This document shows, piece after piece, positions 22,438 to 43,252 of a stretch of DNA of 64,000 bases; within the stretch, counting starts at the first letter, position 1, and every line of letters starts with the position of its first letter. Below the pieces are notes generated by a model that was not told the DNA's origin, ran no database searches, and worked only from the letters and a program-made list of their open reading frames with translations. The DNA is from Gemmatimonadota bacterium. GTDB lineage: Bacteria; Gemmatimonadota; Gemmatimonadetes; Longimicrobiales; Gaopeijiaceae. Location: positions 1 through 64,000 of the forward strand of contig JAJDXM010000063.1 of NCBI GenBank assembly GCA_022823225.1, read 5' to 3'. Made by a program: the position numbers and the translations under genes.

Positions 22438-23163
22438 TCACGCGGGTTCGTCGACTCGGTGCTGCATCAAACCCAGGCATGCCTCGCTTGTCAGGGGCCC
22501 CTCCCACCCCTCCGCAACCCGGGCCACCATCCCCGTCGCATTCGCGACCGCGAAGCTGATCCCGTTGAGGTTGCGCTCCCGGGGGACACCCGGGATCGGC
22601 CTCGGGTATGGCGCGGCGGCGACCACTTCGGACCGGCCGCCCTCTTCCCCCCGCACCTCCACGCACCCGCGCGGGCAACGCTCATCCGTCACCACGCCCA
22701 GCGCCTTTGGCAGCGAGCCCGGCCACCATCGCTGCCCGTCTGCCGTCGCCGCCGCCACAACCACGCCCCCGGCCGCCGCCAACCGGTCCACCGCCGCTTC
22801 CAGCATCGACGCGTGTTCTTCCCGCAGCGTGCCGAGACTCAGATTCACCACCCGCACCTCGCGCTCGGCGGCCCAGTCGATCGCGGCGACAAGCGCGCGC
22901 ACGCTCGTCCTCAGCCGGTCTGTGAATACCCGCAGCGCGAAGATCTGCGCCGCGGGCGCCTTCTCCTGAATGGCCGCGAAGACGGCCGTACCGTGCCCGA
23001 GCCGGTCCACGTAGTCCTCCGAGACCTCGCCCGACAACTCGATCCGCGCGCCGCCGGCCACCGCCCCGACGTGCGGATGCTCCGCGTTGACGCCGCTGTC
23101 GATCACGGCAACCGTCACGCCGCGGCCCCGGAGATCGTGCGCGCCGGGCGAATCGATGCACAA
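22438..23163 (-). CDS. qhpE: Small subtilisin-like serine protease, QhpE
   Basis: The product is 241 residues from a TTG at 23163, 14 bases after the DUF1801 stop. The triad is complete: Asp22 in VAVIDSGVN, His57 in DRLGHGTAVFA, Ser203 in LNGISFAVANATG. There is no signal peptide or pro-domain, unlike secreted subtilases. Such minimal cytosolic subtilases accompany QHNDH genes as QhpE, which cleaves the leader of the crosslinked gamma subunit. The usual oxyanion-hole asparagine after the VVAAA strand appears to be replaced (AAATADG). Assignment rests on size, fold and the other qhp genes nearby. Confidence 0.8.
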   Translation of the reverse strand: MCIDSPGAHDLRGRGVTVAVIDSGVNAEHPHVGAVAGGARIELSGEVSEDYVDRLGHGTAVFAAIQEKAPAAQIFALRVFTDRLRTSVRALVAAIDWAAEREVRVVNLSLGTLREEHASMLEAAVDRLAAAGGVVVAAATADGQRWWPGSLPKALGVVTDERCPRGCVEVRGEEGGRSEVVAAAPYPRPIPGVPRERNLNGISFAVANATGMVARVAEGWEGPLTSEACLGLMQHRVDEPA

Positions 23164-23177
23164 CCGGGTCGCCCCCC

Positions 23178-23588
23178 TCAGAATAGCTCCTCTCCGGGCA
23201 GCACGGCCGACTGTCTGATCCAGTTCAGCAGGAGGTCCTCGTCGATCTCGTCGTCCACGTGGATGTGGAAGTACCGCACATGCTCGTGCTTGGACGCAAC
23301 GGGCGGAGCGGGACGCAGCGAGGCACCGCAGAGCCAGGTCACCTTGATGTACTTCGTAAAGCAGTGGAAGGACAGAAACCAGCCCCGGCCCTCGATTCCG
23401 TAGAAGGGCGAGTTCCACCTGACCGCCTTGCGAACTTGCGGTGCGGCGCGCTCGACCAGCGCGTCGAGGCGGCGTCCGACCCCGCGCTTCCAGCCCGGCA
23501 TGGCCGCGATATAGGCTTGCACCGGCGCATCCCCGTCAGCCTTGGGAATCTGGGGGTTGCCGCCCGACAGGAGTCTCGGTTTCGCCAT
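23178..23588 (-). CDS. DUF1801 (YdhG-like) protein
   Basis: The product is 136 residues from ATG 23588 (MAKPRLLSGG); a TTG nine bases upstream is less likely. The DUF1801 pattern is clear: YIAAMPGWKRGVGRRLDAL, the KAVRWNSPFYGIEG core and a carboxy-terminal IDVDDEIDED-like acidic stretch. These are small cytosolic proteins of unknown biochemical function with a fold related to frataxin/YdhG. It precedes qhpE by 14 bases and probably shares its transcript. Confidence 0.82.
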   Translation of the reverse strand: MAKPRLLSGGNPQIPKADGDAPVQAYIAAMPGWKRGVGRRLDALVERAAPQVRKAVRWNSPFYGIEGRGWFLSFHCFTKYIKVTWLCGASLRPAPPVASKHEHVRYFHIHVDDEIDEDLLLNWIRQSAVLPGEELF

Positions 23589-23741
23589 GACAGACAATCA
23601 AGCCGGCGGCGGGCGGAAAGGAAACCCCCGGTCCGCGGATCTTTAGTCGGTCAGAACGGTATAAGTATGCCACCCGGCGCGTCGCCACGGCTCTCTTTGA
23701 ACCGGGCGCGATACTGTATTCGACATATTCGGGATCGAAAA

Positions 23742-24971
23742 ATGCGAAATAGTATATCAATTGGCCGTCTGACCGCTGTTGCTGTGGTGCCCTGCTCCTT
23801 TTCTCTCCTTTTCTCCACCGCCTGCGACGACTCCGCGGGCCCCGCCGGCGACGCCTTCACCACCTGGATCAGCGAACCGGAGTACAGCTTCGGCGACGCG
23901 CCCGAACACGAGGTCTTCTTCACGGTGCCCTTCCTCCGCGCGGACCCCTACCGGGACCGCATCCTGGTCCGCGACCGTGGCGACAAGCAGATCAGCGCAT
24001 GGACACCGGACGGCTCCCTCCTCTTCGTGGTCGGGGGGCCCGGGGAGGGGCCCGGGGAGTTCACCTCGCCCAGCCGCATCTACTTCGCGCCCGACGGCGG
24101 CTTTTCGGTGCGAAACGATTTCGGGATCCGGTTCACAAGCTACTCGGCGGACGGAGAGCACCTCGAAACGGTGTCGGCGCAGGATGGGACGCTCGAATAC
24201 GACGGCCTGATGCTCAACCTGGAAGCCCCCGCCGGCGACGGCTACCTGGGGTTCCCGCTGACATGGGCGGCGCTGGAACTCGGCGACCACGGCGATCCCC
24301 TCGAGCGCATCGCGGTGGTGCATGCCACCCGCTCCGAAGTCGGACAGCGGCGGGCTCCCGAACCGCTCTTCTGGATGGACATCGGCGGTCGGGTGCGAGA
24401 CACGAAATTCCCGGATGACAGTGGCCTGATCGGGGGCCAGCCGTTCACGGACGCCGACCAGGCGAGGTTCCTGCCGGGCGTGGCCGTGGTGATGCGCATG
24501 AGAGACCTGCCGCCCGGAGCCGTGGAGCTGATCGAGGTGAACGCAGAGGGCGATACGGTATGGCAGCGGCGCCTTCAGCTCGAGCCGCGACCGCTGACCC
24601 CGGCGCTTCTGGATGCGTGGATGGACGAACAACTCGAATGGATGTTGCCGGCCCGCTCCGAGTGGTCGGAGGACGAGGTTCGTGAAGCCCTGGACGCGTC
24701 CGTCCACAAGCCCGAATACCTGCCGGCCGCTACGGGGCTCGTCCTAACCGCGTCGGGCGAAGTCTGGGTCCGGACCAGCGAGGCCGAGGACACGCTCCGC
24801 GTCCACTACGCGGTGCGAAGAGGCGACGCCGACGGCGCGGCGCGGCGGGTCCTGCTGCCGGAATGGCTCGAAATCGAGGACGCGACCGACACCCATGTGT
24901 GGGGGGTCCGGCGCGACGAGATGGACCTGCCGCGGGTCACGGGGCGGAGGCTGGTACGGGCGGGCTCGTAG
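23742..24971 (+). CDS. Six-bladed beta-propeller lipoprotein
   Basis: The product is 409 residues. A lipoprotein signal ends at FSTAC (Cys28). The hallmark GEGPGE is at residues 101-106 in GGPGEGPGEFTSPS, and the closing region has RRDEMDLPRV. Blades are visible as repeated D-x-G-x-hydrophobic turns. It has the same architecture as the copies at 2916, 28384, 46608 and 51520. It sits on the plus strand between qhpE and qhpF and is convergent with qhpF. The upstream 80 bases are AT-rich for this window, but no convincing promoter could be fixed. Confidence 0.85.
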   Translation: MRNSISIGRLTAVAVVPCSFSLLFSTACDDSAGPAGDAFTTWISEPEYSFGDAPEHEVFFTVPFLRADPYRDRILVRDRGDKQISAWTPDGSLLFVVGGPGEGPGEFTSPSRIYFAPDGGFSVRNDFGIRFTSYSADGEHLETVSAQDGTLEYDGLMLNLEAPAGDGYLGFPLTWAALELGDHGDPLERIAVVHATRSEVGQRRAPEPLFWMDIGGRVRDTKFPDDSGLIGGQPFTDADQARFLPGVAVVMRMRDLPPGAVELIEVNAEGDTVWQRRLQLEPRPLTPALLDAWMDEQLEWMLPARSEWSEDEVREALDASVHKPEYLPAATGLVLTASGEVWVRTSEAEDTLRVHYAVRRGDADGAARRVLLPEWLEIEDATDTHVWGVRRDEMDLPRVTGRRLVRAGS

Positions 24972-25010
24972 CAGGCCGTACCGGAGGTCGCCCCCGGGGG
25001 CCCCGCAGGA

Positions 25011-26657
25011 TCACCCGCCCACCAACACCACCCGGTCCGCCACGCGGAGCAACTCCTCGCGGTGCGTGATCAGCACCGTCGTGCGGCCCCTCATTGCCTC
25101 GCGGTACGCACCCACCACCTGCGCTTCGGTCGCCGCGTCGAGCGCGCTCGTGGCCTCGTCGAGGACCAGGACGGCGGGGTCCGCCAGGAGCGCGCGCGCG
25201 ATCGCGACCCGCTGCCGCTCGCCCGCCGATAGCGCCTGTCCGCGCTCCCCGACAAGGGTGTCCAGTCCGTCCGGCAGCGCGGTGACGAAGGCGCCCAGCC
25301 CGGCCCGCTCAACCGCGCGCATCACCTCCTCGGTGTCGGCGTCGGGCCGGGCGTAGCGCACGTTCGCCAGGATCGAGGTGTTGAAGACGATGGCCGCCTG
25401 GTCGACCAGCGCCACCTGCGCCCGCAGCTCGGCCAGCGCGATGTGGCGGAGATCGGTGCCGTCGAGGAGGACGCGGCCGCGGTCGGGGTCGAGGTGCCGC
25501 ACGATCAGGTCGGCGACCGTGGACTTGCCGCTCCCGGACGGTCCCGTGAGCGCGACGATCTCGCCGGGTGGGATGGTGAGCCGGAAGTCCTCCAGCACCG
25601 CACCGCCCCGCCCGTGCCCGCACGACACGTCCTCGAAGACGATCTCGCCGCGCACCGGACCGAGCGCCACCGGCTCGGCCGCCTCTGCCACCTCGACCGG
25701 CTCGTCGAGCAGCTCGTGCACGCGCCTGAGCGACACCCGCGCCGACCCCAGCCCGGTGTAGAGTCCCATCAGCCCCTGCACGGGCCCGATCAGGCGTATC
25801 TGGTAGGCCATGAACGCCGTGAAGGTGCCCAGCGTGACCGCGCCGTCGATCACCCGGGAGCCGCCGTACAGGAACACGACCGCCGTGCTGGCCGACAGAA
25901 GCAGCGCGGGAAGCCCCCCGGCGAGGTAGCTGAGCCGCTGCATCCTCATCAGCGCGGCGACGAAGGAGTCGTTGCGGCGCCTGAACCGCTCGGCTTCGCG
26001 CTCGCCCGCGTTCGAGGCCGCCACCAGGCGCACCCCGCCCAGCGTCTCGATCAGGAAGGCGCCGATGCTCGCGCTCCGCTCGCGCATCACCCGCACCCGC
26101 ACCACCAGCCGCCGCCGGTACCGCACGATCGCCCAGATCGCCGGCGGCAGGAGCGCGGCCGCGGCCAGGAATAGGCGCCAGTCGAGCCAGAGCAGCATCC
26201 CCACCGTCCCGGCCAGGAATGCCACGTTCCCGAGCCACGCCAGCGCCGCGTCCGCGAGCACCCGCTGGATCTCGCTCACGTCGTTGTTGAGGCGCGACAT
26301 GATCTCGCCGAGCGGGGTGCGCGCGAAGAATCGGGGCGACAGCCGCTGCAGGTGCCGGTACACGGTCAGGCGCATGTCGAAGAGGATCTCGGCCGAGACC
26401 CTCGTGTAGCGCATCCCGCTGACGAAGTTCAGCACGAAACTGGCCACCGTGACCGCCGCGAAGAGGCCGACGATCCGCACCAGCGCGTCGCTGTCCTGCC
26501 CCAGCAGCGCGTCGTCGACGAGCGAGCGCGTGAGGAAAGGGATGTAGAGCGCGAGCGCGGTCCCGGCGAGATTGACGGCCAGGATAATCGCGAGACGGCG
26601 CTTGTAGGGGGTGACGTAGCGGAAGCCCCGCCGGATTTCCTGGTCGAGAATGGCCAT
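25011..26657 (-). CDS. qhpF: ABC transporter, fused permease-ATPase, QhpF-like exporter
   Basis: The product is 548 residues. The amino-terminal 300 residues form a type-I exporter membrane domain with about six spans; the carboxy-terminal half is the ATPase. Walker A is GPSGSGKST, the Q-loop region is VALVDQAA, the signature is LSAGERQRVAIARALL, Walker B is VLVLDEATSALD, and the switch region is VLITHRE. It lies directly downstream of qhpB and qhpC on the same strand. In known QHNDH clusters QhpF moves the crosslinked gamma subunit to the periplasm. By sequence alone it could be any small half-transporter; context drives the assignment. Confidence 0.8.
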   Translation of the reverse strand: MAILDQEIRRGFRYVTPYKRRLAIILAVNLAGTALALYIPFLTRSLVDDALLGQDSDALVRIVGLFAAVTVASFVLNFVSGMRYTRVSAEILFDMRLTVYRHLQRLSPRFFARTPLGEIMSRLNNDVSEIQRVLADAALAWLGNVAFLAGTVGMLLWLDWRLFLAAAALLPPAIWAIVRYRRRLVVRVRVMRERSASIGAFLIETLGGVRLVAASNAGEREAERFRRRNDSFVAALMRMQRLSYLAGGLPALLLSASTAVVFLYGGSRVIDGAVTLGTFTAFMAYQIRLIGPVQGLMGLYTGLGSARVSLRRVHELLDEPVEVAEAAEPVALGPVRGEIVFEDVSCGHGRGGAVLEDFRLTIPPGEIVALTGPSGSGKSTVADLIVRHLDPDRGRVLLDGTDLRHIALAELRAQVALVDQAAIVFNTSILANVRYARPDADTEEVMRAVERAGLGAFVTALPDGLDTLVGERGQALSAGERQRVAIARALLADPAVLVLDEATSALDAATEAQVVGAYREAMRGRTTVLITHREELLRVADRVVLVGG

Positions 26658-26724
26658 TCAGTGACGTTGGGCGCGGAGCGCCGCCTTCGCTACCCGTCCC
26701 GCCGAATCTGCCCCGCCAGCCCCC

Positions 26725-27876
26725 TCAACCCCCCCTCGGCCCAGTCCCCTCCGGGATCATCAGGAAGTGCGTCATGTCCGCGTCGAAGGTCACGGTGCGG
26801 ATGAACTCGTAGCTGTCCGCGTCGTAGATGTCGATCGTGGAGCCGGCGTTGTAGATGTACAGGAATTCGCCGTTCGAGCTGACCTCCAGGCTCATCCGCG
26901 GCCGGCCTCGGAAGCGCTGGCGGCTCTCAACCCGCCGGCCCTCGACATCGAAGGTCCAGAATTCGTAGTTCCCGATCTGCTGCACCAACCCGTACGCCTT
27001 TTTGCCGCCGGGCGCGAGGCGGAAGCTGACCCCCTGGCTGGGGCCCAGGGTGAAGAACTCGTACTCCTTCTCGGCCAGATTGACGCGCGCGATCCCCATC
27101 ATGCGCCGGTTCTGCACGGGATCGGTGAACCGCAGCAGGCTGGTGTAGTAGCCGGGATCGTCGTGGGGGCTTGAGGGGAACCCGAAGCTCAGGCGGCCCA
27201 GCCCTTCCTCCAGCGGGCGGGAGAGGTCCCAGCGGTCGACCTCGCTGAAGTCGTCCGGGTCCAGAACGCGGATCTCGGCGCCGAAGAAGTACAGGTACTC
27301 GCCGTCCGGAGAGAACATGAGACGCGCCCGCGAACGCAGCTCTCCGTCCGGCCACGGAATCGTGTCAGTGACCTCCCTGGACTCCAGATCGTACTTCAGC
27401 AGCGTCGGGTCGCCGATCTCCCAGCGGTCGATCTCCTTCGTGTAGCGCATCGTGTTGAGGATGACGAACTCCTCGTCGGGATCGACGGTCATGCCCCAGA
27501 TCCGCACCGTGGAGCGCCCGCTGCTGAGCGTGAAGCTGCCGATGGACTTGCGCGTCGCCACGTCCACGATCTCGATCTCCTCGAACTCGGCGTCGCGCAC
27601 GTAGATGCGCTCGTGGTCCTCCGAGAGGGCCAGCGAAGTGGGGATCCCGGTCGTCAGCTCGATCCGGTCGACGACCTCCATCGTGTTCTCGTCGATGACG
27701 TGGATCGCGTGGTCGTACCCGGCCATGTAGATGATGCCGTTGCCGCCGCCCTGGGCGTGGGCGGTCGGGGCGGTGAGGGCGAGGGCCGCCAGCACGGCCG
27801 CGGCCGCGAGCGGGCGGTGCGCTGCGCGCGTCCGGGCGCCCCCCGCCCGAAGGCCGCTCGCCGTTTCGGCCCTCAC
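26725..27876 (-). CDS. qhpB: Quinohemoprotein amine dehydrogenase beta subunit
   Basis: The product is 383 residues from a GTG at 27876, whose GTGA overlaps the stop of qhpC. A Sec signal peptide ends near AHAQG (about residue 42). The mature protein is a YVTN-type seven-bladed propeller: IIYMAGYDHAIHVIDENTM, TSLALSEDHERIYVRD, LMFSPDGEYLYFFG, LEVSSNGEFLYIYNAGST. Both sequence and location identify the QHNDH beta subunit, which packs against the heme and CTQ subunits in the periplasm. An ATG at 27924 would give an over-long arginine-rich leader, so GTG is preferred. Confidence 0.87.
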   Translation of the reverse strand: MRAETASGLRAGGARTRAAHRPLAAAAVLAALALTAPTAHAQGGGNGIIYMAGYDHAIHVIDENTMEVVDRIELTTGIPTSLALSEDHERIYVRDAEFEEIEIVDVATRKSIGSFTLSSGRSTVRIWGMTVDPDEEFVILNTMRYTKEIDRWEIGDPTLLKYDLESREVTDTIPWPDGELRSRARLMFSPDGEYLYFFGAEIRVLDPDDFSEVDRWDLSRPLEEGLGRLSFGFPSSPHDDPGYYTSLLRFTDPVQNRRMMGIARVNLAEKEYEFFTLGPSQGVSFRLAPGGKKAYGLVQQIGNYEFWTFDVEGRRVESRQRFRGRPRMSLEVSSNGEFLYIYNAGSTIDIYDADSYEFIRTVTFDADMTHFLMIPEGTGPRGG

Positions 27877-28307
27877 GGGAAGATCAGGTCGAGCTTGCGC
27901 CAGTCCTTCTGCGCGGACGCGCACTTCCCCGTCCAGTCGGGCGCGTGGTTCAGCTGATCAGGCACGTGGGCGGGCCAGAAGCAGGCCAGGTGGCAGTCGA
28001 AGAGGTCGCGCTCCACCGGCTGGCAGAGGCCCGCGGTGCCGCCGGTCGAGTCCACCTCCCAGCCGGGCGCGAAGACGAGGGAGCAGCCGAGGGGGATGTT
28101 CGGGCCGCTTTCGAGCGCGACGACGTCGAGGTCGGCGGGGTCGCCGGATGCGAGTGGGCTGTCGGGGGGGCCGCCGTTGCCCGGAGATGGCGCGGGCTCG
28201 CCTTCGGCTCCCGGGGCGCTGGCTCCGGATGCCTGGGCCCCCGCCAGCGCGTCGGTGTGCCCTTCGATCCGGCGTGCCTTCTGGTTGATGGCCTTCAGGT
28301 GGTCCAC
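27873..28307 (-). CDS. qhpC: Quinohemoprotein amine dehydrogenase gamma subunit (CTQ precursor)
   Basis: The product is 144 residues from a GTG at 28307, with GGAAGA seven bases upstream. A conserved leader start MDHLKAINQKARRIEG is followed by about 45 low-complexity Gly/Ala/Pro/Ser residues and then the core. All crosslink partners of known QhpC are in register: Cys75-Glu84, Cys95-Asp101 and Cys109-Asp117 for thioether bridges, and Cys105-Trp111 for cysteine tryptophylquinone. Cys129 is additional. It is modified by QhpD, QhpG and QhpE before export. The leader is much longer than the roughly 28 residues known in Paracoccus. Confidence 0.88.
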   Translation of the reverse strand: MDHLKAINQKARRIEGHTDALAGAQASGASAPGAEGEPAPSPGNGGPPDSPLASGDPADLDVVALESGPNIPLGCSLVFAPGWEVDSTGGTAGLCQPVERDLFDCHLACFWPAHVPDQLNHAPDWTGKCASAQKDWRKLDLIFP

Positions 28308-28383
28308 TGGTTCGTCTTCCTTGTTACACAGGGTAACCGGCTGGCACTCAACATTGGGGCGGTCCCTGCCCGCTCCGCAATAC

Positions 28384-29595
28384 TCAGCCCTTCAGCAGTC
28401 CGTAGAGTTCAAGGAAGGGAACCTCCATTTCGTCCGTCCTCGCGAGGAGTACGTAGTCATCCCCGATGTCCATCAGCTCCGACCCCGCGGGAATCGCGAC
28501 CTCGCCAAGCAGGCGGCCGTCGGCGAGAAAGACCTCGTACGTGTCGCGGCCGGTCCCCTCGTCGCCCACGGGCCAAAGCCCCACCCAGGTGTTTCCGCTT
28601 TGATCGACCAGCAGTGACCTGCCGCCGGAACTGTTCTCCGGGGCCGGGAAGGTCTCTTCCACAACCTCCGGGCCGACCTCCACCATGTCGGCCACCCTCC
28701 GGTAAAGGGCCGCGAGCGCCTCGCCCTCCGGCGCTCTCCTTACACCGTGCCGCCGCACGATGCGGAGCGTATCGCCGGCGGCCGTCATGAAGGTCAGCTC
28801 GTAGCGGTCACGACGCAGAGAAGCCAGGACCGGGGGCGACCCCCCCACGGCAACCCGGTCCGCCCGCTCGAACGGGTCGAAAACATGCCGGTAGAGGCCG
28901 TCGGGTCCCTGACGGTACGCGTTTCCCGGACCCGTGAACAGACCGACGGTATCGAAGCGTTCCCCTCTCCAATCCGCGCGCAACAGAAGGTATTGAGGCC
29001 TCTGGACGATGCCTTCGGCGGGCAGGCCTCCCAGCGGAATGAAGTCGCAAAGGAACACATCGTCGCCGTTGAAGGTCTGATCACAGGAGTACTGCTGAAG
29101 GGGTGTCCAGTCGAAGCGCTCGTCGGAAATCAGGTCGCCAGAGGAACTGAATCGAACGCGCTTGTCCTTCCCCCGGATCTGGACCCCACCAGCAAACCTC
29201 GACAATTCGTCGGCCCACTCGACTTCGCCGGGCCCCTCGCCCGGTCCACCCGCGGTGAACAGGTGCACCCCCTGACCATCGAAGAAGCGCAGATCCCGGG
29301 ACTGCCAATCGAGGACCACGATCGTGTCGGACGCGAGCCGCAGGGCCCCTGCAATCTCGGAGAACTGGTATTCCGCTTCACCCGATACGGCCCCGATCGT
29401 CACGGAGGGCTCAGGTGTGAGACGCCAGGCATCGCCACCGGGCGAGATCGCTTCCCACACGTCCACAACCGCGATTCCCGCCGAGTCTTCGATGGTGAAC
29501 GCGGGCCCATCGGTGGACGCGTCCCGGCCACCGCCATCTCCGCCAGTACACGCGCAGAGCAGCAGGCCGGCTGCGAGCGGTCTCAGGACTCGAAT
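28384..29595 (-). CDS. Six-bladed beta-propeller lipoprotein between qhpD and qhpC
   Basis: The product is about 403 residues. The family hallmark is present (AGGPGEGPGEVEWAD), as is the closing RTDEMEVPFLELYG. The amino terminus IRVLRPLAAGLLLCAC is a short lipoprotein signal with Cys16 as anchor. No ATG, GTG or TTG fits before it in frame; the plausible starts are ATT (29595) or CTG (29586), both overlapping the end of qhpD. Overlap implies translational coupling inside the qhp transcript. This is not a known qhp gene. Its role, if any, in amine oxidation is unproven. Confidence 0.75.
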   Translation of the reverse strand: MRVLRPLAAGLLLCACTGGDGGGRDASTDGPAFTIEDSAGIAVVDVWEAISPGGDAWRLTPEPSVTIGAVSGEAEYQFSEIAGALRLASDTIVVLDWQSRDLRFFDGQGVHLFTAGGPGEGPGEVEWADELSRFAGGVQIRGKDKRVRFSSSGDLISDERFDWTPLQQYSCDQTFNGDDVFLCDFIPLGGLPAEGIVQRPQYLLLRADWRGERFDTVGLFTGPGNAYRQGPDGLYRHVFDPFERADRVAVGGSPPVLASLRRDRYELTFMTAAGDTLRIVRRHGVRRAPEGEALAALYRRVADMVEVGPEVVEETFPAPENSSGGRSLLVDQSGNTWVGLWPVGDEGTGRDTYEVFLADGRLLGEVAIPAGSELMDIGDDYVLLARTDEMEVPFLELYGLLKG

Positions 29596-31031: not shown

Positions 31032-31170
31032 GACATGACAGTAGGGGAATGTGGCGCGGGGGGCCAGAGTAGGGACCGAGGAGGGGAGTGTTGTCGACGA
31101 ACGTGCAGGATAGCGGCCCACCACCTACACACTCCCGGACCCTGACCCGGCACCGCCGGGTATCACACGG

Positions 31171-31176
31171 TATAAT
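31171..31176 (+). promoter_or_regulatory. Probable -10 box of the ankyrin operon
   Basis: A perfect TATAAT lies 54 bases before the ATG of the first ankyrin gene, in the 198-base gap shared with qhpD. No good -35 hexamer is seen at standard spacing. A GGAGGA ribosome binding site follows at 31220-31225. Confidence 0.45.
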
Positions 31177-31229
31177 GGGATGACCCGGATTCAACCGCCC
31201 CAGGGCACCAGAGGCACTTCGGAGGAACC

Positions 31230-34412: not shown

Positions 34413-34419
34413 AGAGAAG

Positions 34420-37400
34420 ATGACTACCAGGGGGCAACCGAAGCCGTTCGGGAGCGCAACGTTCCTGCTGCTACCCCTCCTCGTAGCGGGTTGCACCGCC
34501 ACGCCCGCACCCAGCTCGCCCACCCCCGCGTCACCCCCCTGCGACGGCTGGGGCGCGTTCACCTTCTTCGAGTCGGCTACCCCGCAGGACGTTCGCGAGT
34601 GCCTGGAAGCGGGTGCCAACCTCAACGACCCGTTCTGGGGACAGGTTTTCCACACGGCGGCGCGCTACTCCCCGGACCCGGCCGTCATCGATGTGCTGAT
34701 CGAGGCCGGCGCGGACTTGTACGCCCACAATTCGGAAGGCGGCACGCCCCTGCACTCGGCCGCGGCGGGCAACACTCACACAGGCGTCATTGCCGCGCTG
34801 CTGGAGGCTGGCGCCGACCCCAACGCGCGGGACCTGGACGGCCTGACGCCCCTGCACATGGCCGCCCACACGAACGACAATCCGGACATCGTCACCGCCC
34901 TCGTGCAAGCCGGCGCCGACCCCAGCGCCCGGGGCCCCGCCGGCCTGACGCCCCTGCACATGGCCTGGAACCAGCGGTGGCCCGGCATCCGCCCCGCGGC
35001 AGTCCGCGAATTGCTGCGGCTGGGCGCCGACCGCCTCGCGCGCGGCGATCTCGGTCAGATCGCCGACCCGACCCACTGCGACCATTGGACCACGGCCACC
35101 TTCGCCCAGCTCGCGGTGCCGACAGACTTCATCCGTTGCCTGGAACTGGGCGCGGACATCCTCGCCCGCGACGATCAGGACAACACTCCCCTGCACCGCG
35201 CAACGCAGAACGACGATGCATCCGTCCTGGCGGTGCTGCTGGACGCGGGGGCCGATCTCGAAGCCCGCAACCGACGGGGCCACACCCCACTGCATTCCGC
35301 AATCAGCCACGGCAACCTGACCGCCATGACCGCCCTGCTGGCCGCCGGAGCCGACATCGAAGCCGATGCTGGCGGCTTCTACAGGACACCCCTCAACTAC
35401 GCGGCCTTGCGCATCACCCGCTCGGTGAAGGAGCGCAACGAGGTCACGATCACCCTCATCGAGGCCCTGCTCGAGGCGGGGGCCGATGTCAACACCGCCG
35501 ACGAACGCGGTGACAGCCCACTCGTGAAAGCCCTCAGATATGGCTTGCCGGATGGCCCATCCACACCCCGATCCGATTCCATTGCCGATGCGGTGGCCGA
35601 CCTCGCCTTGAAGCTGTTGGCGGCCGGCGCGGATCCCGGCGCTCAGGGTAGGTCGGGATCAACCCCGCTGCACGAGGCCGCAGAATACAAACCCCCGATT
35701 CTGGTGCAAGCCATGCTGGACGCCGGGGCCGATCCGGATCTACGTAACGGCGCCGGCAATTCCGCGCTGCATTCGGCCGCACGGTCCGGCAGCGTCGAAG
35801 TCATCGAACTTCTGATCAACGCCGGTGCGCAGGTGAACGTTCGAAACCGGTCCGGGATGTCCCCCCTTCACAGTGCGGTTCTCTCGGGAAGGACCTCCAT
35901 GATCGCCGTGCGAACTCCAACCCTGGAGACGGGACCGTGGCTGCAGCGGGCAGCCGCCCTGCTCGAAGCCGGCGCGGACCCGAACCTGGCGGATGCCAAC
36001 GGTGACACCCCCCTGCACTTCGCCGCGCAGGTTTTCGACACCGCACTGGTGTCCCTCCTGGCAGACGCCGGTGCCGCTGTGAACACCCTCAACGACGGCG
36101 GTGAGACTCCGCTGCAGGCGGCCCGGAACCACGCCAACGCGGCGGTTGCGCGCAAGCTGGTCGACATTGGGGCGGATCCGGTCGCGCTCGAGGGCACCGG
36201 TGGGATTGACGGCCCATTCTGCGCCCTGGACGCCTTCATGTTCGTGATTCTCGCCCCACCCGAGACCTTGAGAGATTGTCTGGCTGCCGGCTTCTCCATC
36301 AACACGCCTGACTGGGCCGACCTGACGCCCCTGGTCCAGCTGGTGCGCTTTGGCTCCACACGCGGCGCCCCCGAGAAGGTCGCGCTCTTCCTGGCGGCGG
36401 GGGCGGATGTGAACGCCCGCAATTCCCGCGGAGAGACGCCGTTGCACAGAGCGGCACGCCGGGAGAGTCCCGACACAGCCTCCATGGAGTCGCTGCTGCT
36501 GGAGGCCGGTGCGGACGTGAACGCCCGCGCGAACGACGGACAGACCCCGCTGCACCTGGCCGCGTCCCTCGACCACATCCCCGTCGTAGCCGTTCTGCTG
36601 GAGGCCGGCGCGGAGGTGGACGCCCGTACGAACGCCGGCCACACCCCGCTGCACCTGGCTCTGCTGGGGGGTCGGCGCGCCGCCGCAGCCACGCTGTTGG
36701 AAGCCGGAGCCGATCCGGACGCACGCGACGGCGACGGCAGACTCGTCGATCCGGCCAGCTGCGAGCGCTGGGGCACCGAGACCTTCTTCGTGTTCGCCAC
36801 TGCCGATGTCGTGGCCGCCTGTCTGGAGGCGGGGGCGGACGCTCGCGCGATCAGACCGCAGCCGGATCCCCCGGTTCTCCCGGATGGATGGATCGTGCGC
36901 CCCCGGCGCCCGAGCACTCCCCTCCACATGGCTGCCGCCCAGACACGGGACCCCATCGTCATCACCGCCCTGGTGGAGGCCGGCGCAGATGTGGCCGCGC
37001 GCGACAACGGGGACTACACGCCGCTGCACAAGGCCGCCGAGACCGGCACGCCGGGCGTGGTGCGGGCGCTTCTGGAGGCCGGGGCCGAGGTGGACGCCCG
37101 GCCCCAGGGCTTCGATCGCGGGTTTTCCAGTGGCCGCAATACCCCACTGCACAATGCCGCGCGCAACCCGGATCCGGCGGTTGCCGGGGCGCTCCTCGAA
37201 GCGGGTGCGGAGGTCAACGCCCGTGGTCGGGACGGCATCACCCCGCTGCACTATGCGGCGTGGAATCGGAATCCGGCGGTCGCAGAACTCCTTCTGGAGG
37301 CTGGAGCCGAAGTCAACGCGCGCTCATCCCGCGGCCTCACTCCGCTTCATCGGGCGGCTTCGGGGAACTCGAACCCTGCGGTGCTTTCCGTCCTGCTGGA

Positions 37401-37857
37401 GGCCGGGGCCCACGTACACGCGCGAGGATCGTACCGCACCGCCCACGACCCGCCCGGCCGGCTGACACCCCTGCACTCCGCAGCGAACTGGAACCGCAAC
37501 CCGGAGATCGTGACGCTGCTCGTCGCCGCGGGGGCGGACCCCGATGGAGGGTTGGCTCGGGCAGTCGTTCCCCGGTCGCCCGTCAGCTTGGCCGCCTTCA
37601 CCAACGGCAACCCCGCCGTGCTAGAGGCACTCCTGCACGCGGGCGCGAGCCTGGATCTGGCCGACTCCGAAGGCCGCACCGTCCTGCACCACGCGGCGAT
37701 CACTTTTCCCGCTGCCTTCCCCCTCCTGCTGCGCCTGGGCGCCGACCCGGAAGCGCGCGACGTGGAGGGGAAGACGCCCATGGACTACGCGAGGGAGAAT
37801 CCGGCGCTCAATCCCTGGGAGCGAGTCAGAATGTCAACTCTGCTTGGCAAAAGGTAA
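34420..37857 (+). CDS. Giant exported ankyrin-repeat lipoprotein 2
   Basis: The product is 1,145 residues from ATG 34420. It has a clean lipoprotein signal, FLLLPLLVAGC, with Cys25 as anchor. Ankyrin repeats fill the rest, interrupted by cysteine-paired modules at 41/61, 220/240, 601/620 and 781/801. The carboxy terminus GKTPMDYAREN then NPWERVRMS is almost the same as in the upstream paralogue (QPWERVKMS), so the pair arose by tandem duplication. Both stops are followed by AAGAGAAG. It is likely cotranscribed with ankyrin 1 and displayed on the cell surface or in the periplasm. Confidence 0.87.
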   Translation: MTTRGQPKPFGSATFLLLPLLVAGCTATPAPSSPTPASPPCDGWGAFTFFESATPQDVRECLEAGANLNDPFWGQVFHTAARYSPDPAVIDVLIEAGADLYAHNSEGGTPLHSAAAGNTHTGVIAALLEAGADPNARDLDGLTPLHMAAHTNDNPDIVTALVQAGADPSARGPAGLTPLHMAWNQRWPGIRPAAVRELLRLGADRLARGDLGQIADPTHCDHWTTATFAQLAVPTDFIRCLELGADILARDDQDNTPLHRATQNDDASVLAVLLDAGADLEARNRRGHTPLHSAISHGNLTAMTALLAAGADIEADAGGFYRTPLNYAALRITRSVKERNEVTITLIEALLEAGADVNTADERGDSPLVKALRYGLPDGPSTPRSDSIADAVADLALKLLAAGADPGAQGRSGSTPLHEAAEYKPPILVQAMLDAGADPDLRNGAGNSALHSAARSGSVEVIELLINAGAQVNVRNRSGMSPLHSAVLSGRTSMIAVRTPTLETGPWLQRAAALLEAGADPNLADANGDTPLHFAAQVFDTALVSLLADAGAAVNTLNDGGETPLQAARNHANAAVARKLVDIGADPVALEGTGGIDGPFCALDAFMFVILAPPETLRDCLAAGFSINTPDWADLTPLVQLVRFGSTRGAPEKVALFLAAGADVNARNSRGETPLHRAARRESPDTASMESLLLEAGADVNARANDGQTPLHLAASLDHIPVVAVLLEAGAEVDARTNAGHTPLHLALLGGRRAAAATLLEAGADPDARDGDGRLVDPASCERWGTETFFVFATADVVAACLEAGADARAIRPQPDPPVLPDGWIVRPRRPSTPLHMAAAQTRDPIVITALVEAGADVAARDNGDYTPLHKAAETGTPGVVRALLEAGAEVDARPQGFDRGFSSGRNTPLHNAARNPDPAVAGALLEAGAEVNARGRDGITPLHYAAWNRNPAVAELLLEAGAEVNARSSRGLTPLHRAASGNSNPAVLSVLLEAGAHVHARGSYRTAHDPPGRLTPLHSAANWNRNPEIVTLLVAAGADPDGGLARAVVPRSPVSLAAFTNGNPAVLEALLHAGASLDLADSEGRTVLHHAAITFPAAFPLLLRLGADPEARDVEGKTPMDYARENPALNPWERVRMSTLLGKR

Positions 37858-37946
37858 AGAGAAGGCGACACACGGCAGTTCGATGACGCTGCCACGTCTT
37901 GGGGCCAAGCCGCCGAGCGACTACCCCTGGCGTCGACAACTTCCCC

Positions 37947-39752
37947 CTAACTCCCGTCCGTCCGCCTCGGCAGCACCAGCGTGATGTCCCCGATCCGCCA
38001 CGGTTCCCAGCGCATGTAGAGCGGCACCGTGACGATCAGGTGGGCCCGCCCGCGCACCTCCTCGCCGTCGGGGCCGTGCCAGGTCGCGACCACCCACACG
38101 TCGCCGATGTTGTTGCGCATGCCGCTGCGCTCGGGGTTGGGGCCGTCGATCGCGGGATGGAAGAGGCCGCCCTCGTCCAGCGTCCCGATGTACTCGATGT
38201 CGTCGTCGTCGAAGACCGCGGCGTATTCCTCGACGCTCCAGGTCACGTCGACGTGGCCGAGCGGCAGGTCGTCCCCGGTTTCGGGGTCGCCGTCGGGGCC
38301 GTTGCTGTAGGCGGTCGCCTCGAACTGGGCGAATCCCTTGGGGAAGTTCCCGCCACCGACCCGCGCCATCCCCGCCTCGGGCGTCACCGCGATCCGGTCG
38401 ATGGTCTCGTAGACGGTGAACGCTCCCGGGACAGGCTGGCCGGCCAGGAACACATCCCGGGCGCCCGCAGCGGCGTCCTCGGCAGCCGCCACCTCCGCCG
38501 TGAACCGGTCCGACCCGCTCTCGACGACGCGCACGAGCTCCACACCGGGTCCCAGATCGACATCGTCGGGGCCCAGCCCCTCGGCCAGGTTCACCCCGTG
38601 CACGGTCACGGTCGCCGTCGTCCCGGCACGCACCGCCACCGGATGCAGCCCCGACAGCACCGGACCGTTCGCGCGCACGAGCTTCACATCCGGCCCGAAC
38701 TCGTCGTAGGCGCCCATGAACCAGCGACCGTTGATCTCGTTCCAGCCGCGCTCGACCATCATCACCTCGCGCAGCGCCGTCTCCTCGTCCCCTCCGACGA
38801 AGGAGCGACCGCGCCACTGGTAGCCGGTGTAGACGATCGTCCGGCCGTCGCGCTCGATCCGCTCGCCCGTGCGCACATACTCGTAGCGGAGCCGGGTGAT
38901 GAAGCTGGACGCGTCTGCCCCCTCCGCGATCTCCACCGTCCCGTAGATGGGCCCGAATCCCGGATCGTGACCGCTGAGCGCCCACGTTCCCGCGATCCGC
39001 GGCGGCCGCTTCGTCGCCGACCAGGCCGTCCACTCGGGAGTCACGAGCGGGAACTCGCCCGACAGGTGGCGCACCGCGGCGTCCTTCGGATGGCCGGAAC
39101 TCGCTCCGAACCGCATGAACCCCTGGCCGTCCGAGAGCGGGTAGTAGCCCCGGTGCGTCGCCATCAGCAGGTCCCATTCCTCCCGGGTCCGACGCTGGGT
39201 GATGACCCGTCCCATGGAGTGGCACTGGCTGCAGGTATCCTCCACATCCTCGTCCGGCTCGTAGCTCCAGTCGATCAGCCGCCGCTCGACCTCGAAGCGG
39301 CCCGGCCGGAGCTCCTCCGGCGCGATCCCGTGATTGTCCGACAGGTAGCGGACGATGTCGCGCGCCACCGCCTCGTCCAGCTCCACGTTGTTGAGCGTCA
39401 CCATGCGCCGGATCGACTGCTGCCACCCCTCCGGAGTCTTCCGCATGTAGGAGATGCGGGTCATCATGCCGTCGTCGTCGACCGCATGGCAGCGCTGGCA
39501 GGCGTCGATGACGGTCTCGTTGGTAACGGGGATGCCTTCGTCGTCCCCGTCGTCGCCGTTCTGCTGGGCAGTGGCGAGGGCGGGGATCGTGAGGGAGAGG
39601 AGGACGGCGGCTGGGAGCCTCCGGGACACGAACGCCGAGCACGGGCGCGAGACCGGCCGCGCACCAGAAGGCCGCCGGCCCGAGAGCCGGGGTCCGGGAA
39701 GTTGACGCAGCGCCCGCTCCGCACCGCTCCGACCAGCCATGAGAGGTTTCAT
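37947..39752 (-). CDS. qhpA: Quinohemoprotein amine dehydrogenase alpha subunit (diheme)
   Basis: The product is 601 residues from ATG 39752 (an alternative lies at 39740). It has a long amino-terminal extension, then a signal core LLSLTIPALATAQQ. Two c-type heme motifs are CQRCH (85-89) and CSQCH (174-178), forming the diheme domain. The carboxy-terminal two thirds are beta-sandwich/barrel domains with GEFPLVTPEWTAWSA and later Ig-like repeats, as in QhpA. It accepts electrons from CTQ in the gamma subunit and passes them to a periplasmic carrier. It is separated from the other subunit genes by the ankyrin pair. Confidence 0.9.
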   Translation of the reverse strand: MKPLMAGRSGAERALRQLPGPRLSGRRPSGARPVSRPCSAFVSRRLPAAVLLSLTIPALATAQQNGDDGDDEGIPVTNETVIDACQRCHAVDDDGMMTRISYMRKTPEGWQQSIRRMVTLNNVELDEAVARDIVRYLSDNHGIAPEELRPGRFEVERRLIDWSYEPDEDVEDTCSQCHSMGRVITQRRTREEWDLLMATHRGYYPLSDGQGFMRFGASSGHPKDAAVRHLSGEFPLVTPEWTAWSATKRPPRIAGTWALSGHDPGFGPIYGTVEIAEGADASSFITRLRYEYVRTGERIERDGRTIVYTGYQWRGRSFVGGDEETALREVMMVERGWNEINGRWFMGAYDEFGPDVKLVRANGPVLSGLHPVAVRAGTTATVTVHGVNLAEGLGPDDVDLGPGVELVRVVESGSDRFTAEVAAAEDAAAGARDVFLAGQPVPGAFTVYETIDRIAVTPEAGMARVGGGNFPKGFAQFEATAYSNGPDGDPETGDDLPLGHVDVTWSVEEYAAVFDDDDIEYIGTLDEGGLFHPAIDGPNPERSGMRNNIGDVWVVATWHGPDGEEVRGRAHLIVTVPLYMRWEPWRIGDITLVLPRRTDGS

Positions 39753-39932
39753 CCGACCGATTGCTTTCCGTTTGGGAGGGATGGAGTATTCGTGCTTGCC
39801 GGTTTCGGCGACTGATTGAGTTAACAGGCTGATCGCAGACTTCGCCAGCCCGCACCAGGATCGGAGCAAGCCGCCGGTGCCACCGGGCGCTTCCGTTGCG
39901 GCCCGTCTCCAACGACGTACCACGCACAGGAA

Positions 39933-39974
39933 TTGACCACCGGTTCTTGATTCTGATACCATATTGTGGTATCA
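39933..39974 (+). promoter_or_regulatory. hicAB promoter and operator
   Basis: A TTGACC at 39933-39938 and a TACCAT at 39957-39962 are spaced by 18 bases. A perfect inverted repeat TGATACCA/TGGTATCA (39954-39961 and 39967-39974, five-base spacer) covers the -10 region, just before the hicA start. It is the probable binding site of the HicB ribbon-helix-helix domain. Confidence 0.7.
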
Positions 39975-39980
39975 TCGCTG

Positions 39981-40235
39981 ATGAGGCGCAGGCACCGCGA
40001 GACGCTCGAAATGCTCTTCGCCCATCCGGTCAGCGGCAACATACCCTGGCGGCGAATCGAAGGGCTGTTCGCTGAGCTGGGCGCGGAGATCAGCGAGCGG
40101 AAAGGATCCCGCATCGGCGTGAGACTGTTTGGCGACCGACGGGTATTCCACCGCCCGCATCCATCGCCGAACGCCGATGTCGGCGTGGTCGTCAGCATCC
40201 GGAATTGGCTTCGACGGAATGGAGTGGAACCATGA
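39981..40235 (+). CDS. hicA: HicA-family toxin
   Basis: The product is 84 residues from ATG 39981; a GTG at 39966 lies within the operator and is less likely. The sequence shows the HicA dsRNA-binding-like fold of the longer subgroup: TLEMLFAHPVSGNIPWRRIE, ERKGSRIGVRLFGD, then VFHRPHPSP. HicA toxins cleave mRNA at the ribosome or free. Its stop overlaps the hicB ATG (ATGA), the normal hicAB coupling. Confidence 0.85.
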   Translation: MRRRHRETLEMLFAHPVSGNIPWRRIEGLFAELGAEISERKGSRIGVRLFGDRRVFHRPHPSPNADVGVVVSIRNWLRRNGVEP

Positions 40236-40564
40236 GAAACACCATGGAGATCAATGGCTACAAGGCTGTCATCCAGTTCGATCCGGATATCGACATGTTC
40301 CGGGGCGAGTACATTGGCCTGAACGGCGGAGCAGATTTCTACGCCCGCGACGTTGCCGGTCTCAGGAAGGAGGGGGAAGCGTCGCTGAAGGTGTTCCTGG
40401 AGATGTGCGAAGAGGACGGCGTAGAGCCGCGAAAGTGGTACTCGGGCAGATTCAATCTGCGGATTTCGCCGGAACTGCACGCAAGCGCCGCTGCCGCTGC
40501 GGCTGCCGAGGGGAAGAGCCTCAACCAGTGGATTGCCGGCGCGCTCGCCACGATCTTGCTGTGA
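40232..40564 (+). CDS. hicB: HicB-family antitoxin
   Basis: The product is 110 residues. The amino-terminal degenerate RNase H-like domain is INGYKAVIQFDPDIDMFRGE. The carboxy terminus is a ribbon-helix-helix DNA-binding domain, GRFNLRISPELHASAAAAA with SLNQWIAGAL. It neutralises HicA and represses the operon through the palindrome at 39954-39974. It ends 13 bases before the convergent qhpG stop. Confidence 0.87.
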   Translation: MRNTMEINGYKAVIQFDPDIDMFRGEYIGLNGGADFYARDVAGLRKEGEASLKVFLEMCEEDGVEPRKWYSGRFNLRISPELHASAAAAAAAEGKSLNQWIAGALATILL

Positions 40565-40577
40565 GCCGACTCCGGGA

Positions 40578-42239
40578 TCAGGTCCCACCTCCCCCCGGCA
40601 CCAGCACCCCATCCGCAACGAGCAGCGCGATCACGCTGATGAAGTTGCCCAGGTCCACCGGGGGCAGATCCTCGCGGGCCGCCCACTCGGTGTACGTCTC
40701 GAAGAGCACGCCGGGGTTCGCGCACCCGGGGGCGAGGTGCACGACCCGCAACAGGTCGACATCGCGAAAGTAGCGGACGCCGCCGGGGAAGCGCGGGGTG
40801 ACCAGGGACGGCGCCATCCGGATCCGGTTTCCGATGACCAAGGGGCACTCGACGGTCTTGCGGGATCCGATCCGCAGCCGGCCCGAGCCAAGCCGCAGGG
40901 CGTGAAAGGCCGCCCGGACTTCCGCGTCGTCGCGGAGTTCCTCGGCGCCCGGACCGTCGGGCGAATTGGCCTCGGCTCCATCTTCCGGCCGGTCGGCGAG
41001 CCAGCGGGCGCGCTTTTTCCAGAAAGCGTCCGGGGCCGTCGCCGTCTCGCTTCCCGTCCCGCTGCCCGTGGGCCTCGCGGCGGTTTCCACCTCCTGCCCG
41101 CCCGCGAGCACACCCCCGGTCCGCGTCCCCGCGACCTGTACCGCGAGCCCTTCCCGCATCGACCGGTACATCGCCCGCTCCCGCTGGCTGAAGAATTCGG
41201 TCGCAATCCCCGCCAGCTCCGGCGTCCGGATCGCCGTGTGGACCGCCACCGCCGCGAGCCACCCCGAGGCCAGCGCCTTCTTCACCCCGTACGACGACAT
41301 CGGGTCGGCGAAGGAGGCGGCGTCGCCCACCAGCAGCGCCCGCCCCGGGGCGAACTCGGACGAAGTGTACATCGACGCGGTCACAGCCCAGGCGTCGCCG
41401 GTCGGCACGGCGGGTTTTGTGATGGAGGACATGAGGGCGGTGTTGGCAATCTCGGCCTCGAAGGCCGACGAGAGGTCGGCGGCCCCCTCCATCACGGCCT
41501 GTAGGCGAGGGTCCACCATCACCGCCACATGGCGTTCCTCGTTCGAGGTCGGGACGGACCAGGCCCAGCCGCGCTCGAAGCTCTCCACCAGGGCGTGCGC
41601 GGGGTCGACATTGCTCCAGCCGCCGTCCCTCCGGTACCGCCGCACGACCGCGAGCGTCGGCGCGCCGGCCTCCATCACCCTGTAGCGCCGCCCCACCACC
41701 CCCGCCCGCCCCGTGCAGTCCAGCACCCAACCCGGGACGATCTCCGCGCGCCCCCCGCCATCCAGCGCGACCACCACCCGCCACCCCTCCCCCTCGCCAT
41801 CCCGTTCCGGCATCCGCGCCACCCCCCCCACGATCTCCGCCCCGGCCTCCGCCGCCGCCTCACGCAGCACGCGGTCGAACCGGGACCGCAGCACATGGAA
41901 CCCGGTGGCGCCCCCCGCGAAGTCGTCGCGGCGCCCCTCTCCGCCCCAAAGCGCGGTATTCCCCCCGTTCGGGTGAAACCCCGCCGCCTCCACAACCCCC
42001 AGCAGCCCCGTCGCGCCCAGGACCTTGCGCGTACTCGGCGGCAGCGACTCGGCGAGCGATTGGGCGCCCGCCGCGCGGCTGGCACCACCCAACTCCCGCT
42101 GCACCACCACGACCTCCACCCCCCACTGCGCAAGCAGCCGCGCAGACGCCGCCCCGGCGGGACCGCCACCGAGGACGAGCACCTGGGGATCTGTCGTCAC
42201 GTTGCCGCGTCCGTCGTCTGCGGCTGCCTGGTTCGTCAT
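40578..42239 (-). CDS. qhpG: FAD-dependent monooxygenase QhpG
   Basis: The product is 553 residues. The amino-terminal FAD motif is VLVLGGGPAGAASARLL (about 20-36). The class-A flavin monooxygenase/halogenase region PGRALLVGDAASFADPMSSYGV follows, with the GD motif. The carboxy-terminal 150 residues form an extra domain (CPLVIGNRIRMAPSLVTPRF). In characterised clusters QhpG dihydroxylates the tryptophan of the thioether-linked gamma subunit, building CTQ. The middle (about 395-450) is a Gly/Ala/Thr-rich low-complexity insert. It is identified by architecture plus the complete qhp set nearby. Confidence 0.85.
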   Translation of the reverse strand: MTNQAAADDGRGNVTTDPQVLVLGGGPAGAASARLLAQWGVEVVVVQRELGGASRAAGAQSLAESLPPSTRKVLGATGLLGVVEAAGFHPNGGNTALWGGEGRRDDFAGGATGFHVLRSRFDRVLREAAAEAGAEIVGGVARMPERDGEGEGWRVVVALDGGGRAEIVPGWVLDCTGRAGVVGRRYRVMEAGAPTLAVVRRYRRDGGWSNVDPAHALVESFERGWAWSVPTSNEERHVAVMVDPRLQAVMEGAADLSSAFEAEIANTALMSSITKPAVPTGDAWAVTASMYTSSEFAPGRALLVGDAASFADPMSSYGVKKALASGWLAAVAVHTAIRTPELAGIATEFFSQRERAMYRSMREGLAVQVAGTRTGGVLAGGQEVETAARPTGSGTGSETATAPDAFWKKRARWLADRPEDGAEANSPDGPGAEELRDDAEVRAAFHALRLGSGRLRIGSRKTVECPLVIGNRIRMAPSLVTPRFPGGVRYFRDVDLLRVVHLAPGCANPGVLFETYTEWAAREDLPPVDLGNFISVIALLVADGVLVPGGGGT

Positions 42240-42698: not shown

Positions 42699-42741
42699 CC
42701 CGGCTAGGGCCGCACAGCGCACCTGTCCACGGAGCCCAGCC

Positions 42742-43146: not shown

Positions 43147-43252
43147 GGTCCACGGCGCTACCGCGGGACCGCATCGCGCGCCGACCGGGTCTCTGATCTG
43201 CCGCCCTGGCACGCCGGCCGGCGGAGGCGGTTGGCACAGGCGTTTGCGCTCG

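Follow-up and report, generated by a model that had tools for sequence, protein, structure and literature searches.

Can a biosynthetic system remain in use after the genes that encode it have been pulled apart? The question is raised by positions 22438-42239 of the window analysed here, the first 64 kb of contig JAJDXM010000063.1 from a Gemmatimonadota bacterium (contig C9 of genome G000 in our labelling). There, seven genes resembling those of the quinohemoprotein amine dehydrogenase (QHNDH, qhp) system lie on the minus strand in the order G-A-D-C-B-F-E, spread over 19.8 kb. We propose that this locus very probably encodes QHNDH together with its whole maturation line, that a compact run is the ancestral state, and that in this genus the run was split by insertions and is still used. 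The enzyme family and its variable operon arrangement are already known: the characterised operon is qhpABCDEFGR, and the arrangement, order and strand of the genes vary among genomes (PMC7876137). In the literature titles and abstract openings that were searched, we found no report of a dispersed qhp locus.

All seven genes are open frames of near full length, with starts chosen by a codon-usage script, and a profile search of the genome recovers one gamma subunit, one QhpA and one QhpD (the last at an E-value of 1e-80). The alpha subunit gene, qhpA (37947-39629), scores 467.9 bits on TIGR03908 (cut-off 274.35), matches 1jmx_A in the PDB (E 8.9e-73), and codes for domains II-IV along with two CxxCH haem motifs (PF09098, PF14930, PF09099, PF09100). 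The radical SAM/SPASM maturase gene qhpD (29583-31031) reaches 561.3 bits on TIGR03906 (cut-off 453). The gamma subunit precursor, the product of qhpC (27873-28307), lies well over the cut-offs of NF037958 (119.6 bits, cut-off 50) and PF08992 (114.1, cut-off 25) and matches 1jju_C (E 3.8e-22); its placement in the QHNDH gamma family by a first-pass annotation of this DNA thus holds. The same annotation's reading of a subtilisin-like protease gene as qhpE (about 22438-23118) agrees with a model match of 167.2 bits on NF049966 (cut-off 165). This margin is narrow, the QhpE of G027 from another genus of the family falling under the cut-off at 153.3 bits, and the start of the gene is uncertain, with the frame open to 23418.

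For the remaining three genes the model evidence is less direct. The beta subunit gene qhpB (26725-27876), which overlaps qhpC, has TIGR03907 as its best NCBIfam model at 56.7 bits, though under the cut-off of 223.2, and in a PDB search 1jju_B comes second (E 4e-4), behind a surface layer protein. The product of qhpG (40578-42239), a flavin adenine dinucleotide monooxygenase of the peptidyl tryptophan dihydroxylase kind whose counterpart heads the compact G-A-D-C-B-F-E loci, likewise finds its best NCBIfam model in NF049967, at 211.9 bits under a cut-off of 240. Its single-sequence PDB search is topped by halogenases, with the peptidyl tryptophan dihydroxylase 7ctq fourth of 20, and in a tree its grouping with classical QhpG is compatible but weakly supported (82 and 72). 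The ABC exporter gene qhpF (25011-26657) codes for transmembrane and ATPase domains and is named from general ABC exporter models and synteny, an MsbA-type model standing first and no QhpF-specific model appearing among the matches shown. Given the scores below cut-off for QhpB and QhpG and the lack of a model of its own for QhpF, these three names rest largely on synteny, and for the flavoenzyme the halogenase matches and the weak tree add to this. The first-pass claim of a complete-looking, minus-strand, seven-gene set over 20 kb outside Proteobacteria is therefore confirmed by models and synteny together. Taken singly, the profile searches carry QhpA, C, D and E over their cut-offs, leave B and G below them and place F only as a general ABC protein; the flavoenzyme, read as QhpG in that annotation, has QhpG as its best family model and a compatible tree, with the reservations just given.

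Between profile-model edges the seven genes span 19,751 bp, with gaps of 1017 bp (G-A), 6975 bp (A-D), 1278 bp (D-C), 41 bp (C-B), 94 bp (B-F) and 1883 bp (F-E). The locus is thus not a compact operon in the sense of contiguous genes on one strand, as gaps reach 6975 bp and genes of the opposite strand lie inside it. For comparison, named genomes were scanned with a QhpD alignment, the best 80 of 477 relatives being kept, and the loci were annotated with profile models built from the window and plasmid seeds. The resulting non-genus set holds 79 loci, four from plasmid records and 75 from the QhpD scan; L070 and G032 are one contig under two labels, a single contig supplies both L119 and L137, and L068, counted here as non-genus, stands closest to the genus in the tree described below and may belong to it.

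Outside the genus the genes are close together. A-D-C-B forms a single run in 73 of the 79 loci, with a largest gap of 257 bp, and the other six are without one or more of these four genes, L088, L090, L091, L103 and L138 being cut at a contig end. Complete compact G-A-D-C-B-F-E runs are seen in L071, L076, L080, L082 and L086 (titled Acidobacteria or Bryobacteraceae; 8.6-9.2 kb). Other genera of the family have them too: the run of G027 spans 8.8 kb, and that of G033, where G and A are 2.5 kb apart, spans 11.8 kb. L081 and L085 carry compact sets of this order that are truncated on one or both sides. The compact loci of Acidobacteriota and other Gemmatimonadota share with the window the gene order, a gamma subunit with five cysteines and a QhpD of 63-70% identity, but differ from it in holding the genes in one run of about 8-12 kb. 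The Paracoccus and Pseudomonas enzymes (1jju/1pby and 1jmx/1jmz) have the same gene products and the same bridge pattern in the gamma core as the window; in this type A-D-C-B stay together, with E, F and G placed variously, and the three classical plasmid loci cover 8-10 kb. The first-pass statement that proteobacterial clusters are compact is overstated, since layouts vary there too, both among the plasmid and Leisingera loci compared here and in print (PMC7876137). Similarly, the split that it saw outside Proteobacteria is real, but among the surveyed loci complete compact sets are common outside that group and the split is lineage-specific.

Within the genus, genes found on the same contig always keep their order and strand, and it is the junctions that widen. 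On single contigs the distance from qhpG to qhpE runs from 8.8 kb in G004, a compact genus member, through 14.9 kb (G009), 19.6 kb (G006), 19.8 kb (own genome), 20.2 kb (G010), 23.5 kb (G017, measured from an extra qhpG copy), 24.2 kb (G014) and 34.8 kb (G001) to 49.7 kb (G022). G001 and G022 are single-contig genomes, and as the 4.47 Mb contig of G022 contains the widest locus, fragmented assembly does not account for the spread. The A-D junction exceeds 500 bp in 7 of the 17 genus genomes with both genes on one contig (own, G007, G009, G013 with 787 bp, G019, G021 and G022). F-E exceeds 1.5 kb in 8 of 13 and is the widest junction of G001, G006, G010, G014 and G017. B-F is more than 5 kb in G007, G012, G013, G019, G021 and G022, D-C has grown by roughly 1 kb or more in the own genome, G005, G009, G012, G019, G021 and G022, and G-A by 4.7 kb in G019. 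Only C-B was never widened, measuring at most 309 bp in all 19 genus genomes with a gamma subunit. A maximum-likelihood tree of QhpA and QhpD, with 23 rows (18 genus genomes, G027, G032 without QhpA, G033, G038 and L068; G005 and G008 left out) and rooted on G038, places the compact genera outside the genus and the widened genomes inside it. The synteny comparison that the first-pass annotation had proposed thus finds compact runs outside the genus and, inside it, widened junctions with order and strand kept: the split locus is a derived, lineage-specific state made by insertions. The genus accordingly offers a natural gradient, between a compact locus of 8.8 kb and a dispersed one of 49.7 kb, in which to see how a maturation line survives the loss of its operon and which junction, namely C-B, is never given up.

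What was inserted belongs to repeat families, toxin-antitoxin genes and insertion sequences, at nearly every junction. In the window, two ankyrin-repeat genes lie on the plus strand between A and D, at 31230-34412 (Pfam ankyrin families) and 34420-37857 (NCBIfam ankyrin models on a longer open reading frame, 34294-37857; gene call from 34420). A plus-strand hicA and hicB toxin-antitoxin pair (39966-40235 and 40232-40564; PF07927 34.3 bits, cut-off 27, and PF05534 81.9 bits, cut-off 21) separates G from A. A plus-strand propeller-like gene (23784-24971, from the gene call) lies between F and E. These are the interruptions that the first-pass annotation had listed; it had missed a second propeller-like gene, on the minus strand between D and C (28384 to about 29595), and a minus-strand DUF1801 gene directly before qhpE (23178-23588; PF08818, 57.0 bits). 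The propeller-like names are themselves loose. The gene between F and E has no Pfam match, and its only propeller-type match, on a longer frame, is NF035926 at 20.8 bits against a cut-off of 350; the gene between D and C, named by eye, has no Pfam or NCBIfam match. The N-terminus of the latter abuts or overlaps the end of qhpD, and its start codon is uncertain, as no ATG, GTG or TTG was found near the N-terminus and the nearest candidate start is ATT or CTG.

Elsewhere in the genus, ankyrin genes opposite to the qhp genes recur between A and D in G009, G019, G021 and G022, and in G012 they adjoin A, with D on another contig. Propeller-like genes or arrays occupy the B-F junction of G007, G012, G013, G019, G021 and G022. 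G019 has received a PIN gene between G and A, and G001 an integrase-core gene between F and E. In G022, the D-C gap of 24 kb contains an IS21-type IstA/IstB pair, and near its ends stand inverted copies of one gene (L145 3604-4869 and L056 17709-18974) identical at 420 of 422 positions, counted on the translation with the stop included; from its sequence this insert resembles a composite transposon. HicB genes of 82-85% identity occupy three different places in the locus (window 40232-40564; L040 13619-13960; L144 4105-4461): the relatives of the window gene stand in the D-C junction of G012 and, in G022, upstream of G.

Given that such genes recur at the locus, one might take the propeller-like and ankyrin genes for new functional partners that enlarge the locus and do not disrupt it. 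The B-F propeller-like genes of six relatives and the A-D ankyrin genes of several would fit this, as would the window gene that stands in line with qhpD and qhpC and has a relative of 69% identity at the same position in G005. But the propeller-like family counts at least 73 stretches in the own genome (E-value up to 1e-5, query included) and at least 125 in G022, with 54 in G021 and 33 in G001 (some genes comprise two stretches), and the closest G022 relative of the D-C gene, at 60% identity, lies about 0.47 Mb away from the G022 qhp locus. Since the family is spread through the genome, its presence at the qhp locus is not specific; compact loci have no room for such genes, and ankyrin genes occur near the site in G003 and G015, which lack qhp. 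We consider the partner explanation very improbable and did not retain these genes as parts of the system, being either spread genome-wide or absent from compact loci.

A second possibility is that the genes are a decaying remnant, with the operon broken by insertions and the enzyme no longer made. The gamma family is present in 19 of 23 same-genus genomes (own included); G008 has QhpA and QhpD with the gamma subunit missed, which may be an assembly gap, and G003, G011 and G015 (3 of 23) have no QhpA, QhpC or QhpD match. In G003 and G015 ankyrin genes stand near the syntenic place, about 1.3 kb past a landmark formed by an AraC-type and an AAA-domain gene (no ankyrin gene was matched at this landmark in G011), so that a split locus may be heading to loss. 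G017 has a second, frame-split qhpG, and in G005 the gamma Cys27 is replaced by Trp. Nevertheless, none of the seven window frames is broken and all are close to full length, the window gamma subunit keeps all its cross-linking residues, and the QhpD of dispersed loci (G005, G009, G012, G019, G021 and G022) is 87-98% identical to that of the window, like the QhpD of compact members. Decay of the window locus is therefore unlikely, and the intact frames suggest that the split system is still used.

Several points nevertheless weigh against a complete and functional system derived from a compact ancestor. Besides the below-cut-off scores of QhpB and QhpG, the general matches of QhpF and the ankyrin genes at the landmark of qhp-less genomes, L141 (titled Blastocatellia), which is not cut by a contig end, has D, F and E but no recognised A, C or B in 21 kb. 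The support joining the two dispersed clades of the tree is weak (68), so that the A-D insertion may have a single or a repeated origin, and G009, with the same kind of A-D insert, falls in the other clade. The loci of G005, G007, G012, G013 and G019 lie on more than one contig, where the full order is not visible, and the repeated gene of the G022 insert scores 32.2 bits on the Pfam integrase-core model, just under its cut-off of 32.6. Finally, that the qhp blocks are used and co-transcribed is something we infer.

How might the split locus work? In the characterised system QhpD forms three Cys-to-Asp/Glu bonds, QhpG carries out dihydroxylation, a 28-residue leader is cut by QhpE, and QhpF performs the export (PMC7876137). 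By analogy, the QhpD of the window would tie cysteines to Asp or Glu residues in the gamma precursor, QhpG would dihydroxylate the gamma tryptophan, QhpE would remove the leader and QhpF would export the peptide; the gamma subunit would then join QhpA and QhpB in the periplasm, where the enzyme would oxidise primary amines and pass electrons on through two c haems. The leader is about 64 residues by alignment in the window, as against 28 in the classical system, with a Gly/Pro/Ala-rich stretch before a conserved DVVA end. The locus itself would have started as a compact G-A-D-C-B-F-E run of about 8-12 kb, such as other family genera and Acidobacteriota have, into which the genus admitted insertions without change of order or strand. 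Because of the inserted genes, at least four blocks would now need their own promoter or read-through, namely G, A, D-propeller-C-B-F and DUF1801-E, a division that we infer from gene positions. Parts of the set might be separately regulated, as the first-pass annotation supposed, although the stretch from D through the propeller-like gene, C and B to F still shares one direction and its gaps are short. When the stretches preceding qhpD in 11 genomes were aligned and judged by eye, they showed a block common to the own genome, G012 and G021 and none common to all dispersed genomes that might be a shared promoter. QhpC, QhpD and QhpG form one complex during maturation (PMC7876137), which fits the idea that in-step production matters; yet only C-B is kept together without exception.

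The gamma subunit sets this system apart from the classical one. It is known to carry three Cys-to-acid bridges (PMC7876137, PMC8172795), Cys7-Glu16, Cys27-Asp33 and Cys41-Asp49, besides the Cys37-Trp43 link (PMC8172795) of the cysteine tryptophylquinone (CTQ) cofactor. In Paracoccus numbering, used here throughout, the window gamma subunit has Cys37 and Trp43 of CTQ and all three Cys-Asp/Glu pairs, and in addition a fifth cysteine at position 61 (codon 27921-27923), for which the candidate acceptors are two Asp residues (27903-27905 and 27888-27890). To gauge its conservation, 201 gamma records from the fetched loci were reduced to 109 distinct cores with a pattern that required Cys37, Cys41, Trp43 and an acid near 49 and left Cys27, Cys61, Asp67 and residue 72 free; L088, L141 and L218 gave no gamma record. 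The sample is uneven, as 64 of the 109 cores come from the QhpD scan, with loci nearest to the window's QhpD.

Of the 109 cores, 96 have Cys at position 61 and the other 13 Ala or Val. All 96 cores with Cys61 have Asp as residue 67 (L217 having one extra residue in between); the 13 without it have Asp 11 times and Asn twice. Residue 72 is acidic in 95 of the 96 (93 Asp, 2 Glu, and a Cys in L217) but in only one of the 13. Five core positions (23, 32, 36, 61 and 72) separate the two types, Asp36 being kept only in five-Cys gamma subunits and Asp12 and Asp39 only in the four-Cys set; the classical gamma has four cysteines and lacks Cys61, carries both Asp12 and Asp39, and at 72 has Gly or Gln in 12 of 13 cores. 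As the two sets are largely separate clades, the counts for Cys61 and residue 72 are not independent. The 13 cores without Cys61 stem from plasmid records (Paracoccus, Leisingera, Pseudomonas and Cupriavidus) or from genomes drawn evenly from the phylum of a Sphingobium genome. In that draw Cys61 occurs only in the centre genome, with seven gamma subunits of six other genomes lacking it. Where genomes were drawn evenly from the own phylum and from that of a planctomycete genome, Cys61 stands in every gamma read (19 and 14 distinct cores respectively, each draw contributing no more than 30 fetched loci). The five-Cys branch thus includes all cores read from Gemmatimonadota, Acidobacteriota and Planctomycetota, plus those of the sphingomonads and acetic acid bacteria that the scan brought in; it covers three phyla at the least, along with part of a fourth. 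Among its members are L060 and L096, five-Cys loci of named Novosphingobium and Sphingobium strains. The gamma family as a whole was found in 75 of 395 genomes of the own phylum (74 over cut-off), 7 of 398 drawn from the Sphingobium phylum and 19 of 392 from the planctomycete phylum (18 over cut-off); nearer the window it occurs in 3 of 12 genomes of other family genera and 1 of 24 in the rest of the order.

Both PDB-matched gamma sequences are of the four-Cys type, without Cys61. A disulfide from Cys61 to the alpha or beta subunit was considered and is unsupported: among 87 QhpA sequences only the four haem cysteines pass a 25% reporting limit (0.99 of 84 non-classical sequences), and among 100 QhpB sequences two cysteine columns reach only 0.36-0.37, none being kept set-wide. 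With no extra conserved cysteine in QhpA or QhpB, a partner cysteine is not in sight, and given a lone conserved cysteine in a subunit whose other cysteines are all bridged, a fourth thioether is the likeliest single reading. We tentatively suggest, at somewhat less than even confidence, that in the five-Cys branch QhpD may make a fourth Cys-to-acid thioether, from Cys61 to Asp67 or Asp/Glu72, and that the Paracoccus/Pseudomonas type lacks or has lost this bridge. The Cys61-Asp67 spacing of +6 is that of Cys27-Asp33, and residue 72 also follows Cys61. A free thiol or some other role for Cys61 is possible. An AlphaFold model of the mature gamma subunit (A3, 38 sequences) has a mean predicted local distance difference test score (pLDDT) of 59.5 and at that level decides nothing; read literally, it has Cys61 within a helix (own residues 61-70) that Asp67 closely follows, which would speak mildly against a Cys61-Asp67 bridge. 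The fifth cysteine is not mentioned in the literature titles and abstract openings searched, a scope that excludes the main QhpD and QhpE papers. A candidate non-model CTQ enzyme, as the first-pass annotation had it, appears better supported through this cysteine than was then claimed, and mass spectrometry could directly distinguish a QhpD making four thioethers from one making three. Cys-Asp thioethers are also made by PapB (PMC8172795), on whose model the window QhpD scores 280 bits, under the cut-off of 340; the product of such freyrasin/PapB-type ranthipeptide systems is a peptide, unlike the enzyme subunit of qhp.

Some single sequences deserve mention beside these sets. In the G005 gamma subunit (L059/L024, C605, 240-641) Trp replaces Cys27 and the other bridge residues are kept, reflecting a sequencing error or a lost bridge. 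L217 (G844 C23) is a very divergent gamma of the planctomycete phylum with seven core cysteines, its Cys61-like residue standing one place further from the Asp and a Cys at 72. At reference position 458 of the window QhpD, 88% of non-classical QhpD sequences have an extra Cys, the position being Gly in three classical QhpD, in planctomycete loci and in some acidobacterial loci. About 37% of non-classical QhpB sequences, sphingomonad ones among them, have a Cys pair at reference positions 290 and 310, perhaps an internal disulfide.

Beyond qhpE lie an AraC-type gene and a large AAA-domain gene on the plus strand (18183-22368; Pfam HTH_18 and AAA_16), which serve as a syntenic landmark and are not counted in the qhp set. 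Since AraC-type or other helix-turn-helix regulators stand near classical qhp loci, and this AraC gene adjoins the AAA gene neighbouring qhpE in the own genome, G004, G009 and G022, it could be taken for the qhpR of the locus. However, a relative is present in all 16 genus genomes searched, the qhp-less G003, G011 and G015 among them, and in G001 the AraC gene is more than 30 kb from qhpG-qhpF. Being kept with or without qhp, it marks the site, and its identity as qhpR, which we reject on this ground, is improbable. At the other end, beside qhpG (42441-46429), lie a PIN (VapC-like) gene, with a small gene upstream of it that by eye looks like an antitoxin, and a HipA gene accompanied by a small gene that by eye resembles a helix-turn-helix protein; relatives of the PIN and HipA genes adjoin the same end of the locus in several genomes.

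A few further loci depart from the common layout. L096 (12911-13903), L108 (13000-14022) and similar loci of sphingomonads and acetic acid bacteria have a gene of about 1 kb between qhpB and qhpF that has a GxGxxG-like start by eye, groups with classical QhpG (support 88) and may replace it; the L096 copy has no Pfam match at 1e-3 and no NCBIfam match at 1e-20. The second qhpG-like copy of G017 (L025, C7, 5868-7348) is split over two frames beside an intact one, and in L053 (G018 C37, 10170-11763) the qhpG match consists of two overlapping pieces in different frames. L124, an Acidobacteriia contig, carries two qhp sets in opposite directions.

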